A stretch of DNA of 22,236 nt from the IMG/VR virus record IMGVR_UViG_3300021961_000709, positions 1-22,236 of that record. One strand, 5' to 3'. This stretch comes from a virus. The notes under the pieces are model-generated. The model was not told where the DNA came from, did no database searches, and saw nothing but the letters and a program-made list of their open reading frames with translations. Shown piece by piece: positions 3,247 through 16,143 of this stretch. The translations under genes were made by a program, and so were the position numbers. Numbering within the stretch: position 1 is the stretch's first letter; every line of letters starts with the position of its first letter.

Positions 3247-3625
3247 AGGTTTCGAATACGGCATTTAGTTCGTTAATCATGCGTTGCCATTCGCGGGGGT
3301 TGCACGTGCATGGTTTATACACCCGTTTCAATTGGAATATGCGGTGGTACATTTTGGCGATTTCCTCCGACTCCATGTGCGTGATGGTGGTATTTTGTTG
3401 TTCGCGAAATGTCTTCATCCAATTGTATTCGAATTCCGTCATGCATAGCGGTTGGCGATATGGCACCAATGCATTCAATTTAACCTTCCGTTCCTCGCAT
3501 CCGCAATCCTCGCCCGCGATAAACTTCACGGCTTTTTCAATTCCCGTGGCTTTCGTGATTTTCTCGATCGTATCCCCGATACCGCGTGATGGTTTCCGTG
3601 TCTGCTTTCTCTTGTATGTACTCAT
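3236..3625 (-). CDS. Conserved phage protein with two CxC pairs
   Basis: A 129-residue protein beginning MSTYKRKQTRKPSRG. After a basic tail comes a GIGDTIEKITKATGI segment (15-29), then C41-G-C43 in DCGCEERKVKLN. A second cysteine pair, C106-T-C108, lies in YKPCTCNPREWQRMI. The two CxC pairs could form one zinc site. I recall similar GLGDTIEKxTKATGI...CGCxxRKxKLN proteins in Bacteroidota phages and prophages, without known function. Its first 89 bases overlap the 3' end of the sigma-factor gene in another frame; no later in-frame ATG would preserve the conserved block, so the overlap appears real. Confidence 0.8.
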   Translation of the reverse strand: MSTYKRKQTRKPSRGIGDTIEKITKATGIEKAVKFIAGEDCGCEERKVKLNALVPYRQPLCMTEFEYNWMKTFREQQNTTITHMESEEIAKMYHRIFQLKRVYKPCTCNPREWQRMINELNAVFETYDA

Positions 3626-4142: not shown

Positions 4143-4490
4143 TCATTTTTCGTTCAAATAAAAATTGATGGTATCGACAAATTCATCAACCGACCGCACC
4201 ACCACGTATTTGTATCCCGCATCGGTGACGTGGCGTTGCCATTCCTTTTGCGTATCGGTTTGCCGACCCGTGGGTGTTTTCATTTCGATAAACAATGCGG
4301 GGTGTGATTTTGGTACGAACAATGCCAAATCCGCAACCCCAGCCGTGACACCCTCTTGTTTGAGCAAAAAAGCTTCGCGCTTGGAACGATGCCGCCCGTT
4401 GGGTATGTGGATTAACAACGGAGCCAATTTTGGGTATTGGTATCGAAACCATCGAACACATTGGATTTGGATTTGGCTTTCGTCACTCAT
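4143..4490 (-). CDS. VRR-NUC domain nuclease
   Basis: A 115-residue stand-alone VRR-NUC (PD-(D/E)xK superfamily) nuclease. Visible motifs are HIPNGRHRSKREAFLLKQEG (28-47), GVADL with D54, the catalytic strand FIEMK with E69 and K71, and Q81 in TDTQKEWQ, followed by a GYKYVVVRS strand. Known phage members are structure-selective nucleases that resolve branched DNA, or replication-linked nucleases. The ATG at 4490 overlaps the methyltransferase stop as ATGA, hence its choice over the start 129 bases upstream. The context with a methyltransferase is compatible with DNA processing; it is not a typical restriction partner. Confidence 0.92.
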   Translation of the reverse strand: MSDESQIQIQCVRWFRYQYPKLAPLLIHIPNGRHRSKREAFLLKQEGVTAGVADLALFVPKSHPALFIEMKTPTGRQTDTQKEWQRHVTDAGYKYVVVRSVDEFVDTINFYLNEK

Positions 4491-5335
4491 TTTTTGAATA
4501 CCAAAACGTTTTGATGGACTTTGACCAATTTTTGTGATTTCATATTGCCATTGGCACGCATCGATGCGGATGCGATCGAATTTAACAATATGGCTTCGTT
4601 GTAAAATGCCATGCCACATTTTTGAAATGCCCGTATCGTATCGGGAACAAAACCAACATAATTGCCACGTTTATCGCGTATTTCACCAACCACAAAACAC
4701 GCGTATCCATTTGGTTTTAATAGCGAACACGATTTTGCAATAATGGATTCATATGCCGTCATGAAATCGTTGTATTCCATGTTTGAAATATCACCATCCA
4801 AATCACTATAAATTTCCAAATCACCATAGGGTGGGCATGAAAAAACAAAATCGTATTGTGCATTCATGCCATCCAAAACAACATTAGAATCACCAACGTA
4901 CCAATTTGGTTGATTGTTTACCGCCAATATTTGCAACGCTTGTTCACGATTGCTTTCAATTTGTTCGGTGCGTATGTCGATTCCCGTGTATTTGTACCCC
5001 AAATAATTCGCTACAATTCCACGCACGGAACCACCCGCAAATGGATCCAATATTGCACCACCATCATTGCAAAACCATCGGTACAATACTTCACACAATG
5101 CAGGATCAAATATGGAAACATATTCCGCCGTATTGTTTTGCTTTGATTTGGTATCCATATGAATCACGGAAGAATTGCGGCCAACTTCCGATTTGATCCC
5201 CAATGCCTTCCATTGTTTTTGCCGATTTCGCCATGATCCACTTTTTGTATCCAACACGGAAAAAGGTGGTTCAATGAATTTGTCACGCAAAATGACATCC
5301 TCAATAATTGGGTTACCAAACAAATCAACGTTCAC
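4487..5335 (-). CDS. DNA amino-methyltransferase with SCPPY active site
   Basis: A 282-residue methyltransferase. The cofactor loop DPFAGGSVRG (about 97-106) precedes the catalytic motif, giving the gamma-class order. Motif IV reads SCPPYGDLE, a variant of (D/N/S)PPY with Cys before PPY. A FVVGEIRDKRGNYVGFVPD segment follows. It would transfer a methyl group to adenine-N6 or cytosine-N4. It begins at a GTG (5335) that overlaps the upstream stop as GTGA and ends in an ATGA overlap with the VRR-NUC gene, so the three are translationally linked. It is unrelated in layout to the ParB-linked enzyme downstream, so the phage carries two different modification activities. Target unknown. Confidence 0.9.
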   Translation of the reverse strand: MNVDLFGNPIIEDVILRDKFIEPPFSVLDTKSGSWRNRQKQWKALGIKSEVGRNSSVIHMDTKSKQNNTAEYVSIFDPALCEVLYRWFCNDGGAILDPFAGGSVRGIVANYLGYKYTGIDIRTEQIESNREQALQILAVNNQPNWYVGDSNVVLDGMNAQYDFVFSCPPYGDLEIYSDLDGDISNMEYNDFMTAYESIIAKSCSLLKPNGYACFVVGEIRDKRGNYVGFVPDTIRAFQKCGMAFYNEAILLNSIASASMRANGNMKSQKLVKVHQNVLVFKK

Positions 5336-5931: not shown

Positions 5932-6234
5932 TTATTCATACCCCAATTGGCGTTTAACATCCTTTTGATTGCCTTGTCTCTTCGCGTAATTCTTGCCACG
6001 CAATTCGGGGTGCAATTCCTGCACCTTTCTCCGTGCGCGTGTGACCGATTCCGTGGATGCCAATTTGCCATCCGAATGAAGCTTCAAAAAATTCCATGCG
6101 TTCATGGTGACAATGTTTTGGCCCAATCGTTTAACTTGGGCATCCCAAATGATGGCCATCAACAAATTGTCGTTGTCGCGTGCGTCCTCGTATTGTTCCA
6201 ATACGTTTTTGACTTGGTTAAATTGTATTTTCAT
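5932..6234 (-). CDS. Conserved phage hypothetical protein
   Basis: A 100-residue protein. It has a helical N-terminal part (VLEQYEDARDNDNLLMAIIW), a central FLKLHSDGKLASTESVTRARRKVQELHP and a basic C-terminus (ELRGKNYAKRQGNQKDVKRQLGYE). I recall proteins of this pattern, with DDxLLIxxIW, GKL.....RRxRQKxQExHPELRG, in many phages next to replication or recombination genes, without assigned function. The basic half suggests nucleic-acid binding. The start overlaps the preceding stop by 17 bases. It is the last gene of the early block before the palindrome-bearing gap. Confidence 0.75.
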   Translation of the reverse strand: MKIQFNQVKNVLEQYEDARDNDNLLMAIIWDAQVKRLGQNIVTMNAWNFLKLHSDGKLASTESVTRARRKVQELHPELRGKNYAKRQGNQKDVKRQLGYE

Positions 6235-6874
6235 GGTTCAAAGTATAAAGTGCAAATTTTGCCGCATCGGACATATCGTCCCAATTGCGGGTTGTTTCTT
6301 CGATTTGTGCGAACGTACGTTCAAAGTCCACCCGCTTATTTGATGGGATGGTTTTGGCCAACGATTTGGTGTACCGCGTTTCATATTCCACAATCCAATC
6401 AACCATCTGCGATATCTCGGCATTGGAAAACATATCTGGGTGTTCCATTTCACGCCAACAAATGGCCATTAAACGCGGCGAAATCAATTCATTGATACCT
6501 TGGTATGCCCGTTTGAATTTCGTGGCCGTAAATGCGATTGTTTGCGGCCAATCCGTTGGTTCGGGTTTGGGGGCCGCAAGTTGTTTTGGTTGCTTTCGTT
6601 CCAAGGTTTGCCAATTGTCGCGGCGGTATTGGTTCAAAATGGCCGTCACAAATGGCACGTTCAATCGCTTTGGTTTGAAAATGTCGGCGTATTTTCCCGC
6701 CAACCACGCATCAAACGCCATCGGCAACATTTCCACTTGGTACGATGCGTATTGTTTTTGAACAAACGCGGCAATTTCGGATATCACTTCGCCACGATCA
6801 ATATCCGCCAAGGCGCACAATCGGCCCAGGGCGTTCCCAATGTGGTGGTGTTCCAAATCTTCAATATATTTCAT
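6218..6874 (-). CDS. Putative replication-associated protein
   Basis: A 218-residue protein downstream of the initiator candidate. The N-terminal 90 residues contain an AAFVQKQYASYQVEMLPMAFDAWLAGKY-like run (35-61; residues E48, F54 and G60 stand out) and a VPFVTAILNQYRRDNWQTLE segment. I associate this pattern with uncharacterised proteins near replication genes of Bacteroidota phages. A Lys/Pro linker (QPKQLAAPKPEPTD) separates it from a helical C-terminal half. Such a two-part layout suits a helicase loader or replication accessory protein, but no Walker motif is present, so an ATPase loader is unlikely. It begins 22 bases after the initiator stop. Confidence 0.65.
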   Translation of the reverse strand: MKYIEDLEHHHIGNALGRLCALADIDRGEVISEIAAFVQKQYASYQVEMLPMAFDAWLAGKYADIFKPKRLNVPFVTAILNQYRRDNWQTLERKQPKQLAAPKPEPTDWPQTIAFTATKFKRAYQGINELISPRLMAICWREMEHPDMFSNAEISQMVDWIVEYETRYTKSLAKTIPSNKRVDFERTFAQIEETTRNWDDMSDAAKFALYTLNHENTI

Positions 6875-6896: not shown

Positions 6897-7625
6897 TTAA
6901 TCAAACCAACCTTTTTGTGGGGCGTTCCAATCGATGTCGTCCCACCCTTGTTTTTTGGTGTATGGCAATTCATCCATCCAACGGCGTTGATTGATGTATG
7001 TGGTGAAATGGGGTAGGAATTCCAATTTTCCGTTGTCCTTGTGATTTTGGACATATTGTTCAACGTGGCCCATGATGGCTTTCATATCGTCCTTGGAAAG
7101 CTTTCGGAATTTGGCCAACGCGGTTTGTTTGGTTCCCTTTTTCCCGTAGGCATTCCATATGTGTTCGAACAATTCGTCAATTCGATTTTTCGGCCCTTTA
7201 TTAGTTACAGTTCTATTATCAATTACAATTAAATTATCATTTTCATTTTCATTTTCCATATGGGGTTCCATATGCGTTTCCATATGGGCGGCCATATGTG
7301 TGTTCATATGTGGTTTTTCTTCTTTGGTTTTAAGATTACGGCGGCGTGATTCGGTGAAACGTTGGCGTTTGATTTGTTCATCTTCCAATCGTTTATTGAA
7401 CCAAAGTCCGTTTTCATCCTGCGCGAATTTTTTGCGAACCACGGGCCAATGTGCCGCGAAATCGGATTCGCCCAATAACTGCATGATTTCGGATTCGTGC
7501 AAATGGCCGTTGTTGAATTGTGCGTGTAACAAATCCATATACACGCCCTTTTGGTGTCGGTTTAATAGTATGGTTCCAGAATGCCAATCATTCCAATACC
7601 ATAACATTGCGGGGTCTTTTGACAT
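6897..7625 (-). CDS. DUF1376-like replication initiator candidate
   Basis: A 242-residue protein. Residues 1-90 match the DUF1376 (YdaU) pattern: MSKDPAMLWYWNDWHSGT, then a GVYMDLLHAQFNNGHL helix pair and a WFNKRLEDE segment, a winged-helix-like fold linked to phage DNA replication. A basic stretch (QRFTESRRRNLKTK) leads to a linker with five HMxx repeats (106-125) and Asn/Glu repeats. The C-terminal domain (about 150-230) contains WNAYGKKGTKQTALAKFRKL and a FTTYINQRRWMDE end, a pattern common at the C-termini of phage initiators. The ATG at 7625 directly follows a T-run. A GTG at 7649 would add eight residues encoded by the possible terminator and is less likely. It probably melts or marks the origin carried inside its own gene. 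Confidence 0.78.
   Translation of the reverse strand: MSKDPAMLWYWNDWHSGTILLNRHQKGVYMDLLHAQFNNGHLHESEIMQLLGESDFAAHWPVVRKKFAQDENGLWFNKRLEDEQIKRQRFTESRRRNLKTKEEKPHMNTHMAAHMETHMEPHMENENENDNLIVIDNRTVTNKGPKNRIDELFEHIWNAYGKKGTKQTALAKFRKLSKDDMKAIMGHVEQYVQNHKDNGKLEFLPHFTTYINQRRWMDELPYTKKQGWDDIDWNAPQKGWFD
7198..7256. other. A+T-rich stretch beside iterons, candidate unwinding element
   Basis: This stretch is markedly richer in A and T than the surrounding coding sequence. It includes attatcaattacaattaaa and three copies of CATTTT at 6-bp spacing (7238-7255) that abut the first CATATG. It stays in frame, encoding Asn/Glu/Asp-rich linker residues. Its placement on one side of the iteron array matches the usual order of a duplex-unwinding element in phage and plasmid origins. 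Function is inferred from arrangement only. Confidence 0.5.
7257..7310. repeat. Five CATATG iterons at exact 12-bp spacing
   Basis: CATATG begins at 7257, 7269, 7281, 7293 and 7305, so five palindromic cores recur every 12 bases. On the coding strand the unit is roughly CATATGGAAACC and encodes His-Met-x-x five times. The intervening six bases vary (AACACA, GCCGCC, GAAACG, GAACCC, GAAAAT). The array lies in the linker region of the initiator candidate. Iterons inside the initiator gene flanked by A+T-rich DNA are how lambda-type origins are built (lambda O). Alternatively it is only an in-frame codon repeat in a disordered linker. Confidence 0.7.
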
Positions 7626-7736: not shown

Positions 7737-7916
7737 TTAACGCTTTTCTTTTGTTTTGTTTTCGATTTCGTACGGATCAATTCCCTGAAACCTTAACCAT
7801 GCCCGCATTTCGTTGGAAACGTGGCCATGATCATATGGCGTTTTTTGGTCAAACCATGCCACCTCGCGTTCGGCACGTTCGATATCTTGTTCGGTTTTTT
7901 TAGAATGGCAGGTCAT
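7737..7916 (-). CDS. Hypothetical small protein
   Basis: A 59-residue protein starting MTCHSKKTEQDIERAEREVA and ending YEIENKTKEKR. The ATG at 7916 overlaps the stop of the SSB-like gene by 17 bases, so I prefer it to the upstream start at 7994, which would lie inside that gene. The middle contains WFDQKTPYDHGHVSNEMRAW. It is strongly charged, with no recognised motif. It is the last gene before the structured leader. Confidence 0.65.
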   Translation of the reverse strand: MTCHSKKTEQDIERAEREVAWFDQKTPYDHGHVSNEMRAWLRFQGIDPYEIENKTKEKR

Positions 7917-8382
7917 CGCTTGTTCCATATGTTTTTGATTTGATGGCATCGTGTTTGGCATCCTCGGCCAAAGCTTTGGCGGTGTCTTCACCACTCATGA
8001 CGTACAATTCGAATATTTTGGCGAATGTGGTTATTTGATGCAATTTGATTTCCCCGTGAATGCACAAATCCGTTGCGCATTTCAATACACTCATGCGTGT
8101 GATTCGCTTGTCGGTTTCGGGGTCTTTCGCCTTCGGTGCAAATGCTTGTTGTTGCATCTGGGCGGGCTTCACATTGTAAAACGTACGGCCGCCATGTTCA
8201 CGTGATGTGATGGTGTATGCGGATTCGGTACCCACAACGAATTTGTTTTGGTCTTGGGACTTGGACAAATATTCGCCCGTGTCCCCATTTTCGAACGATA
8301 CTTCAAATTTGTACATGGTGCCATACTGGCCATTCCATGTTCCGTTGGCGGCGACATTGGTCACCTTTGATTGCTTTTCCAT
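7900..8382 (-). CDS. Single-stranded DNA-binding-like protein
   Basis: A 160-residue protein. The N-terminal half fits an OB-fold-like beta domain: VTNVAANGTWNGQYGTMYKF, then FENGDTGEYLSKSQDQNKFV and a YTITSREHGGRTFYNVKP strand pair. A helical part follows (KRITRMSVLKCATDL). The C-terminus is TSDDLPF, closely resembling the acidic DDDIPF tip by which bacterial SSB recruits replication and repair proteins. It would coat single-stranded phage DNA during replication and recombination. It overlaps the upstream HTH gene by 22 bases. The tip is seen; the OB fold is inferred from pattern. Confidence 0.8.
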   Translation of the reverse strand: MEKQSKVTNVAANGTWNGQYGTMYKFEVSFENGDTGEYLSKSQDQNKFVVGTESAYTITSREHGGRTFYNVKPAQMQQQAFAPKAKDPETDKRITRMSVLKCATDLCIHGEIKLHQITTFAKIFELYVMSGEDTAKALAEDAKHDAIKSKTYGTSDDLPF

Positions 8383-15102: not shown

Positions 15103-15584
15103 CGGATTTTTTTAATAACTGCAATTAGACATAACACCACAATAATCCACATCCACCATTGGTCGTTTTTGTATACCACCTTGGGTACCGCAACCGATTT
15201 CGTGATGCGTATCGTATCCCCCTTGCATTTGGTGTATACCTTTATGATATCCTTTTCGCGTATAACTTGCGTATAAACGAACGAATCCTCCATTGTGATG
15301 GTATCGTATTCCGTGGTGACGAACGTGTCGGAAATCGTCCTTTCCTCGCGAACCACGATGGTATCGATGGTGACAATGGTTGGGTGAATGATGGTTGGAT
15401 CTTTTTTTACGGCCCTTTTGACGTGCCATTCGGCCGAACACGATGTCATCAACAACACGATGGCGATGGCCTTGGCCGTGCGTTTGAAAAGCTCGCATTT
15501 GACCACGGGCAATTTGTCCATGTAGGCCGTTAATTTGGCCACCTTTTCGGGTTTGGGTTTGTATGGTTTCTTCAATTCCGTCAT
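15099..15584 (-). CDS. Lipoprotein-like membrane protein
   Basis: A 161-residue protein. After a Lys/Pro-rich start comes a hydrophobic run ending in a lipobox (AIAIVLLMTSC, C49) and AEWHVKRAVKKDPTI. A strand-rich middle has many Thr, Val and Ile (TIVTIDTIVV, TFVTTEYDTITMED). A C-terminal membrane helix, WWMWIIVVLCLIAVI, is followed by KKIR. With the internal ATG at 15521 the signal peptide would have normal lipoprotein length (Cys28), so that start deserves weight. Lipobox proteins with C-terminal helix recur in Bacteroidota phage structural regions; the role is unknown. Confidence 0.7.
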   Translation of the reverse strand: MTELKKPYKPKPEKVAKLTAYMDKLPVVKCELFKRTAKAIAIVLLMTSCSAEWHVKRAVKKDPTIIHPTIVTIDTIVVREERTISDTFVTTEYDTITMEDSFVYTQVIREKDIIKVYTKCKGDTIRITKSVAVPKVVYKNDQWWMWIIVVLCLIAVIKKIR

Positions 15585-15632
15585 TATGTTGACGCTATTT
15601 GGCCAAATTCCGTCACTATATTGACGCTTTTT
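15574..15632. repeat. 27-bp direct repeat, two copies 32 bp apart, each with a dyad
   Basis: AATTCCGTCAttatgtTGACG at 15574 and AATTCCGTCActatatTGACG at 15606 match over 27 bases with three differences. Each copy contains a perfect inverted repeat CGTCA-N6-TGACG (15579-15594 and 15611-15626). The first covers the start codon at 15584; the second touches the stop codon of the upstream gene. This looks like a tandem operator or a duplicated translation-start region. Confidence 0.6.
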
Positions 15633-16143
15633 ACAAATTCCAATTGACGTAATTCGATGGATTGGAATTCGGATATTCGCCCGATTGTTGATCCTGCGTA
15701 TATTCTGGGAAATACTGCGGGAAATACGACAAATAATCCACCACACGGCGGCGGTATGTTTCGGCAATTTGCCGTTGGCGTGCCACCAATGTATCGATTT
15801 CACCCTTATCGGGCAATGCCGTATTTTCGGGGGTGTTGCGAACGATGCCCGCATTGGATACCTCATATCCATGGAACAACAACAAATCGGCCATGGAATA
15901 GTGAATCAACATCGGTTGGATGTATTGCGACACCAACGTGGCATAATTGCCCGCTAATGTTCCATTTTGGACATCCGTCAATACCTTGCGGTAAAGGGCC
16001 GTCCCCAATAATTCCTGCACCTGAATATCTTGGGCCACCTTCACGAATGGCGTGATTTTGTCAATGTCAAAATTCCCCGACAACTGCGTGTATTTGTACA
16101 ATTCATCGCGGGTAATCAATAAAACGTCATCGTTTGCGTACAT
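15631..16143 (-). CDS. Head-tail connector-like protein (DUF6712-like)
   Basis: A 170-residue protein starting MYANDDVLLITRDELYKYTQ. It is predominantly helical: KITPFVKVAQDIQVQELLGT, then LVSQYIQPMLIHYSMADLLL, and a VARQRQIAETYRRRVVDYL helix. This matches the adaptor/connector-like DUF6712 pattern of Bacteroidota phages (I/VQ..L.GTxLY....). Such proteins sit under the portal and join head to tail. It lies four bases after the portal stop, as expected. The C-terminal tail is rich in Tyr, Asn and Pro. Confidence 0.75.
   Translation of the reverse strand: MYANDDVLLITRDELYKYTQLSGNFDIDKITPFVKVAQDIQVQELLGTALYRKVLTDVQNGTLAGNYATLVSQYIQPMLIHYSMADLLLFHGYEVSNAGIVRNTPENTALPDKGEIDTLVARQRQIAETYRRRVVDYLSYFPQYFPEYTQDQQSGEYPNSNPSNYVNWNL

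Follow-up and report, generated by a model that had tools for sequence, protein, structure and literature searches.

The window (the whole stretch analysed here, a 22,236-bp virus record) carries five exact CATATG iterons at 12-bp steps beside an A+T-rich block, both within the gene for a putative replication initiator. This array and block very probably constitute a phage replication origin embedded in its own initiator gene, for which we infer protein binding and replication start from the DNA and its relatives. An origin of this lambda-like arrangement had been proposed in an earlier note, and its proposal gains support from sequence observations described below, among them the independence of the motif from reading frame, the strong CAT bias of its His codons, and a record (G002) in which the array lies outside the gene.

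All five hexamers that the earlier note had listed were re-found exactly by motif search, at 7257–7262 (the iteron adjoining the A+T block), 7269–7274, 7281–7286, 7293–7298 and 7305–7310 (the iteron farthest from the block); every step is 12 bp, and the array, to which no strand was assigned, spans 7257–7310. CATATG is not over-abundant as such in the window (11 copies against 8.8 expected, with 11 or more in 26 of 100 shuffles), whereas a fixed-step run of five is expected about 2e-13 times at a frequency of about 4e-4 per base by our own arithmetic. The unusual property is the spacing, not the abundance. Tandem Repeats Finder called the array at period 12 (score 59) and period 24 (score 77), together with (ATTTTC)x4 at 7233–7256, so the A+T-rich repeat DNA said to abut one side of the array was also recovered. 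On the coding (minus) strand, the five CATATG are followed by GAAAATGAAAATGAAAATGATAATTTAATTG. The A+T-rich block (7197–7256, minus strand), which starts with GAAAATGAAAATGAAAAT on the coding strand and is the proposed unwinding element, was 83% A+T over the 60 nt from its start, compared with 56% for the array and 58% for the initiator gene. A 32-bp tandem repeat elsewhere in the window (15574–15641; 2.2 copies, 84% matches) is unrelated to the array.

The host gene (6897–7625, minus strand; defined from its ORF and its Pfam and PHROG matches) encodes 242 aa comprising a DUF1376-like N-terminal domain (7353–7625, minus strand), the array-bearing linker and a C-terminal domain (6951–7190, minus strand). 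Its DUF1376-like character, claimed previously, was borne out: residues 10–83 matched PF07120 with an E-value of 2.2e-6, though the score of 28.4 bits was below the curated cut-off of 30.1, and the best PHROG matches of the protein were to 'primosomal protein' (2.4e-18) and 'replication initiation protein' (6.8e-14). Among relatives, L101, L189 and L267 likewise scored below the PF07120 cut-off, L165 (32.6) and YdaU (92.2) scored above it, and at E 0.01 the L006 protein had no match. DUF1376 was the only Pfam family returned for the window initiator, with no lambda-O-type N-terminus, and none of the four proteins searched against NCBIfam gave a match there. AlphaFold2 predicted a winged-helix-like fold for the N-terminal domain with confidence (pLDDT 89.9). 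Comparison with solved structures gave weak matches only, of the winged-helix kind (best Foldseek E 0.38); the best structural Z was 6.9, for an ORC2 domain, and the DnaD N-domain gave a weak Z of 4.9. These predicted similarities are consistent with, rather than proof of, DNA binding by the N-terminal domain, which is our candidate for the iteron binder.

The C-terminal domain is proposed to contact a helicase loader, and its type varied among relatives: of the 63 genes with CATATG, 10 had the window type and the other 53 fell into 23 clusters, 13 of them single-gene. The C-terminus of L184 is PF07261 ('Replication initiation and membrane attachment'), which we take to be of the DnaB/DnaD type. 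In two loci (L102:4001-4873 and L184:206-1165), a T5orf172/MUG113 domain, of the GIY-YIG type, separates the DUF1376-like domain from the CATATG array as an in-frame insertion; it is possibly a homing-type nuclease lodged beside an origin. The co-directional gene downstream of the window initiator (6218–6874, minus strand) had no Pfam match and a single PHROG match (E 0.092). It occupies the position at which a helicase or loader was found in 4 of 8 relatives tested, these eight downstream genes being drawn from 12 loci: a G39P-type loader (PF11417) directly downstream in L189, DnaB in L214, a DnaC-like loader in L085 and a primase/helicase in L170. The downstream genes of L101, L220, L089 and L117 gave no replication match. 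On the other side, the neighbouring gene (7900–8382, minus strand) had been called SSB-like; its product does end in an SSB-like acidic tail, DDLPF, but it matched no Pfam or PHROG family at E 0.1, and the label is unproven. The window also contains two DNA methyltransferase genes on the minus strand (1615–2820 and 4487–5335), one of them with a fused ParB-like N-terminal domain.

Relatives were collected with the N-terminal domain only (seed KDPA[FV]LFY), yielding 80 viral loci (the best 80 of 509) and 57 genome loci, with 133 distinct proteins. Removal of genes shorter than 140 aa or with a similarity above 0.80 across 160 residues reduced these 137 loci to 88, in which dereplication at 0.80 similarity leaves some shared ancestry. 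A previous homologue search had the linker peptide HMENENEN among its seed peptides and was therefore linker-biased; its loci were excluded from the frame, spacing and codon statistics and were used for the comparisons with L005 and L006, the C-terminal clusters and the nearest-neighbour test. A residual bias comes from the alignment for the N-terminal search, which was built from loci of the HMENENEN-seeded search.

The repeat might be a feature of the protein only, a His-Met linker, or a product of codon-level slippage in a low-complexity linker. All five window copies lie in a single frame and are read as HMxx, and the in-frame 12-bp form is common among relatives, where 77 of 80 12-bp gaps were in frame 0. 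The whole set of relatives, however, argued strongly against this reading. CATATG was present in 63 of the 88 genes at 235 sites, distributed over the three frames as 182/32/21, and neighbouring sites were separated by 11 bp 25 times, 12 bp 80 times and 22–24 bp 16 times. These 121 gaps compare with a mean of 0.04 and a maximum of 2 in 300 codon shuffles, and the 25 gaps of 11 bp with a mean of 3.3 and a maximum of 8 in 300 synonymous shuffles that kept the protein. At 11-bp steps, CATATG was coded as HM, [ST]Y[VDE] and xI[CW], for example in L179 and L189. The L189 linker, TYEKDMKNICNSYEKHM, carries CATATG, GATATG, CATATG, CATATG and CATATG at exact 11-bp steps through three frames, an array that no protein-level rule yields. 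Pairs of CATATG at 11 or 12 bp numbered 105 in 64,416 bp of initiator genes versus 2 in 703,279 bp of flanks, and both flank pairs belong to one array, that of L186. In a diverged DUF1376-like gene (L343, in G016; E 1.5e-11), the third frame holds three CATATG spaced 12 bp apart (CDGICERICDGIC). Flavobacterium caseinilyticum (L220) has a version with two sites.

Codon choice pointed in the same direction. The earlier note had suggested asking whether the His codons vary freely, and they do not: His-Met codons of the linkers were CAT 104 times and CAC once, compared with 271:109 for other His codons. In the A+T block, which was located by protein pattern in 78 of the 88 genes, GAA:GAG was 205:1 and AAT:AAC was 271:1, compared with 1075:386 and 831:476 elsewhere in the genes; the A+T content of the block exceeded that of its own gene in 77 of the 78. 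The hexamer after the last linker CATATG was GAAAAT in 31 and GAAGAT in 13 of the 58 genes with a linker site. Between the window and its nearest relative, L005, the 11 shared His-Met and Glu-Asn codons tested were all identical, as against 87 of 149 codons elsewhere. It is thus well supported that selection acts on the DNA, and not on the protein alone, in both the array and the A+T block. Selection on protein as the sole cause, which the note had wanted excluded, is excluded because the motif occurs in each of the three frames and is found past stop codons as well; the protein-only or slippage explanation is refuted by this frame independence and by the copies outside the reading frame, and we regard it as almost certainly wrong.

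Homologues of equal linker length without a repeated DNA motif were to count against an origin. A linker CATATG pair at 11 or 12 bp was kept in 49 of the 88 relatives, and other linker repeats, at lag 11, 12 or 22–24, were found in 18 of the 23 testable genes without CATATG (shuffle mean 3.5, maximum 9); the lag statistics covered 23 of the 25 genes without CATATG and 55 of the 63 with it. Among these 23, the number of genes in which a shared exact 6-mer recurred was 10 at lag 11 (shuffle mean 0.69, maximum 3), 10 at lag 12 (1.22 and 4) and 8 at lag 22 (0.50 and 3), with no excess at lag 10 or at lags 13–20. Lag 11 or 12 was seen in 16 (mean 1.8, maximum 5), and the control lags 9, 10, 13 and 14 in 4 (mean 2.9). 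Alternative cores recognised by eye were ACCACGGTAATACC, GATAACCCAAAA, AAGCTATGCTTG and TTGACC/GGTCAA. The palindromic CATATG core put forward earlier holds for the window and many relatives but is one core among several, and its 12-bp period, exact in the window, becomes 11 or 12 bp among relatives. The suggested restriction to phages of Bacteroidota had to be dropped, since arrays also occurred in loci of MAGs labelled Clostridia and others.

In 34 of the 88 genes a CATATG pair lay inside the codons of the DNA-binding domain itself, and 31 of these also had a linker pair. A tblastn search of plasmids with part of the L101 protein gave no match, and the same part matched one record among annotated phages, with no CATATG in the fetched stretch. 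Among annotated phages, the window protein had matches in 61 records, one of which covered at least 80% of the protein. The match in Tenacibaculum phage JQ was to the C-terminal part only, and its gene has no CATATG.

The viral collection was also scanned blind to protein, using the pattern CATATGN{5,6}CATATGN{5,6}CATATG, which returned at least 120 stretches. Of 120, 87 were inside an ORF with a DUF1376-like domain and 6 within 50 bp after the end of one, giving 93 in or at most 50 bp past such a gene, and 27 were neither. Seven of the 27 looked related (L223, L289, L230, L329, L304, L312 and L301), L289 being a contig edge with the same linker; the other 20, judged by reading, were tail-fibre-like coding repeats, low-complexity DNA or stretches without assignment. 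At L223 (6175–6213), four CATATG at 11-bp steps lie in different frames (AYEKHMDTICKPYG) in the gene of an initiator-like protein without a DUF1376 match, and the same signal may be read there by a second initiator family.

Several records had the array and the A+T block together outside the coding frame. In L230 (G002), L329, L312, L304, L301 and L186, the array belongs to no initiator ORF and A+T-rich DNA, GAAAAT-like or of another kind, comes after it; the L312 array is overlapped by a 78-aa ORF of no known family. In G002, both array and block are missing from the linker of the DUF1376-like gene at 3595. An intergenic run of three CATATG spaced 11 bp apart, with GAAAATGAAAATATAAATG after it, is found at 33106, about 29 kb from the initiator along the record. 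The L186 array consists of three CATATG spaced 12 bp apart, with GGGAAATGGAAATGGAAATGAAAATGG after them, and is located approximately 130–160 bp upstream of a DUF1376-like gene whose linker has no array. The His-Met frame of the L186 array is broken by stops, and two other open frames cross it, one of which would be the extreme 5' end of a divergent 520-aa ORF, provided that this ORF begins at an upstream GTG; the array is probably non-coding, and L186 is probably the second case, after G002, of an array outside the gene with a linker that lacks it. The L186 array (2199–2228) is situated between the DUF1376-like gene and the 520-aa ORF, which is host-peptidase-like by eye, and the element may be a remnant in a chromosome. 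In six further loci, L225, L244, L267 (224–566), L274, L236 and L233, the DUF1376-like ORF is cut short by a stop codon, with the array just beyond it. The 60 nt after these arrays were 70–95% A+T in five and 63% A+T in L236, where degenerate GATATG copies continue.

When 35 hand-chosen whole records were searched for CATATG pairs, 32 had a pair and none had the reversed control pattern. Thirty of the records had one DUF1376-like match each, 3 of these without an exact CATATG pair, and 5 had no such match, including G033 (32,995 bp), which has an array. The pairs listed for the 30 records were at the DUF1376-like gene except in G002 and for one extra pair in G006. This isolated pair (L342; G006:C1:30759-30775) is located about 4.3 kb from the initiator gene and adjoins DNA that looks, by eye, like the 3' portion of a tRNA gene. 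Among 15 of the 35 records, treated as circles with their ends unknown, GC-skew extremes were no nearer to the array than expected by chance (Fisher P 0.42).

Palindromes arrayed one turn apart would suit a transcriptional regulator too, and the L186 array does lie upstream of its gene, so that the array might be an operator at which the initiator or a repressor controls transcription of the replication operon. Such a function seems unlikely to us, given that the array is usually in the middle of the gene and in G002 is far from it along the record, that the A+T block follows the array in most cases read, and that the coding copies of this block are themselves under a synonymous constraint which an operator does not need. 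Autoregulation through the array could nevertheless accompany its role as an origin.

The window was also compared with L006. Identity in the flanks is 95.1% over the 992 bp ending at codon 5 of the gene and 91.5% over 1709 bp on the other side. Of the 24 consecutive 30-bp steps that start at the last CATATG, 23 were 87–100% identical and one was 73% identical, whereas ungapped steps before the last CATATG were 17–40% identical. The approximately 345 nt between the matching flanks correspond to the whole putative DNA-binding domain (37% protein identity) and four of the five iterons, and the array types differ, being 12-bp and in-frame in the window and 11-bp and multi-frame in L006. As judged from these alignments, the comparison shows an exchange between the window phage and L006 that involved the predicted DNA-binding domain and the array as a single unit. 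The pair L170/L173, for which one flank was considered, may represent another such exchange. In the nearest-neighbour test, array class followed the N-terminal part in 64 of 78 cases and the C-terminal part in 48 of 63, so the N-terminal part was not singled out.

The ends of the L006 exchange, at MSKDPA and CATATGGAAAATGAAAATGA, together with the possible L170/L173 case, could also mean that the array is mainly a recombination joint for the exchange of initiator domains. A joint, however, needs no 11–12-bp phasing, no multiple copies and no presence away from the gene, and the phasing is kept in relatives with entirely different cores; we consider this explanation very unlikely. A broader proposal that goes beyond the embedded origin, and to which we give about an even chance, is that DUF1376-type initiators are self-addressed cassettes. 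The domain and its own sites would be contiguous and swapped as a unit at two conserved ends, and the cores (CATATG, GGTAnTACC-like, AACCC-type and others) would turn over without change in the one-turn step or the purine-rich A+T block. If this is true, a phage could change its origin specificity in one recombination, a large family of so far unassigned function would have a mechanism, and origins would be predictable from gene sequence.

For the embedded origin itself, the following mechanism is proposed. The winged-helix DUF1376-like domain would bind the CATATG palindromes, which recur about once per helical turn, and assemble a nucleoprotein complex. This complex would strain the adjacent (GAAAAT)n block, which would then open, and the C-terminal domain, as its type and the gene order suggest, would recruit a helicase loader or helicase to the exposed strand. 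The proposal gives DUF1376-like proteins a concrete, testable function and provides a single short pattern by which candidate origins of replication can be located in many uncultured phages and prophages. It also describes a striking DNA signal that runs through a coding gene in every reading frame, lies outside the gene in some lineages, and has been exchanged along with its proposed reader domain.

Several known systems resemble this arrangement. In lambda, according to the J02459 annotation and PMC7466680, iterons and an A+T-rich tract lie in the middle of the initiator gene O, as they do in the window. The four 18-bp iterons annotated in lambda (J02459) follow one another at 20, 24 and 23 bp, or about two turns, whereas the window has 6-bp palindromic cores and the steps in its relatives are 11–12 bp. 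The N-terminus of the window initiator is also of another type, and we found no membership of the lambda O family for it, with DUF1376 as its only Pfam match, a 12-bp step and a 6-bp core.

The Bacillus phage SPP1 has an oriL within gene 38 and a distant oriR, each consisting of direct repeats and an A+T unwinding element, and a replication set of initiator gp38, loader gp39 and helicase gp40, as described in PMC6316719. Compared by description, SPP1 and the window share repeats with an A+T element inside the initiator gene, and the G002 array away from its initiator gene resembles oriR. L189, with its G39P-type loader directly downstream, is a further likeness. The Rac prophage of E. coli has an active origin, oriJ, according to PMC3945230. 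Its DUF1376 protein YdaU gave the strong PF07120 match noted above (92.2), and the DnaC-like ydaV lies downstream. The ydaU linker has repeats at 33, 33 and 12 bp, which are suggestive only, and it differs in having no CATATG; the motif count of the fetched stretch was 15 against 9.5 expected, a value reached by 11 of 200 shuffles and borderline at most.

The DnaD/DnaB primosome proteins of Firmicutes are similar in their winged-helix N-terminus, to which the weak DnaD match of the window domain points, and in the PF07261 domain at the C-terminus of L184; the window protein differs in that its Pfam scan gave DUF1376 only. To our knowledge, no embedded origin is known for DnaD. A search of the open-access literature, which leaves subscription papers mostly outside, found no paper tying DUF1376 to an origin. 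What differs from the known embedded origins is the short palindromic core, the one-turn step, the encoding through three frames and the initiator family.
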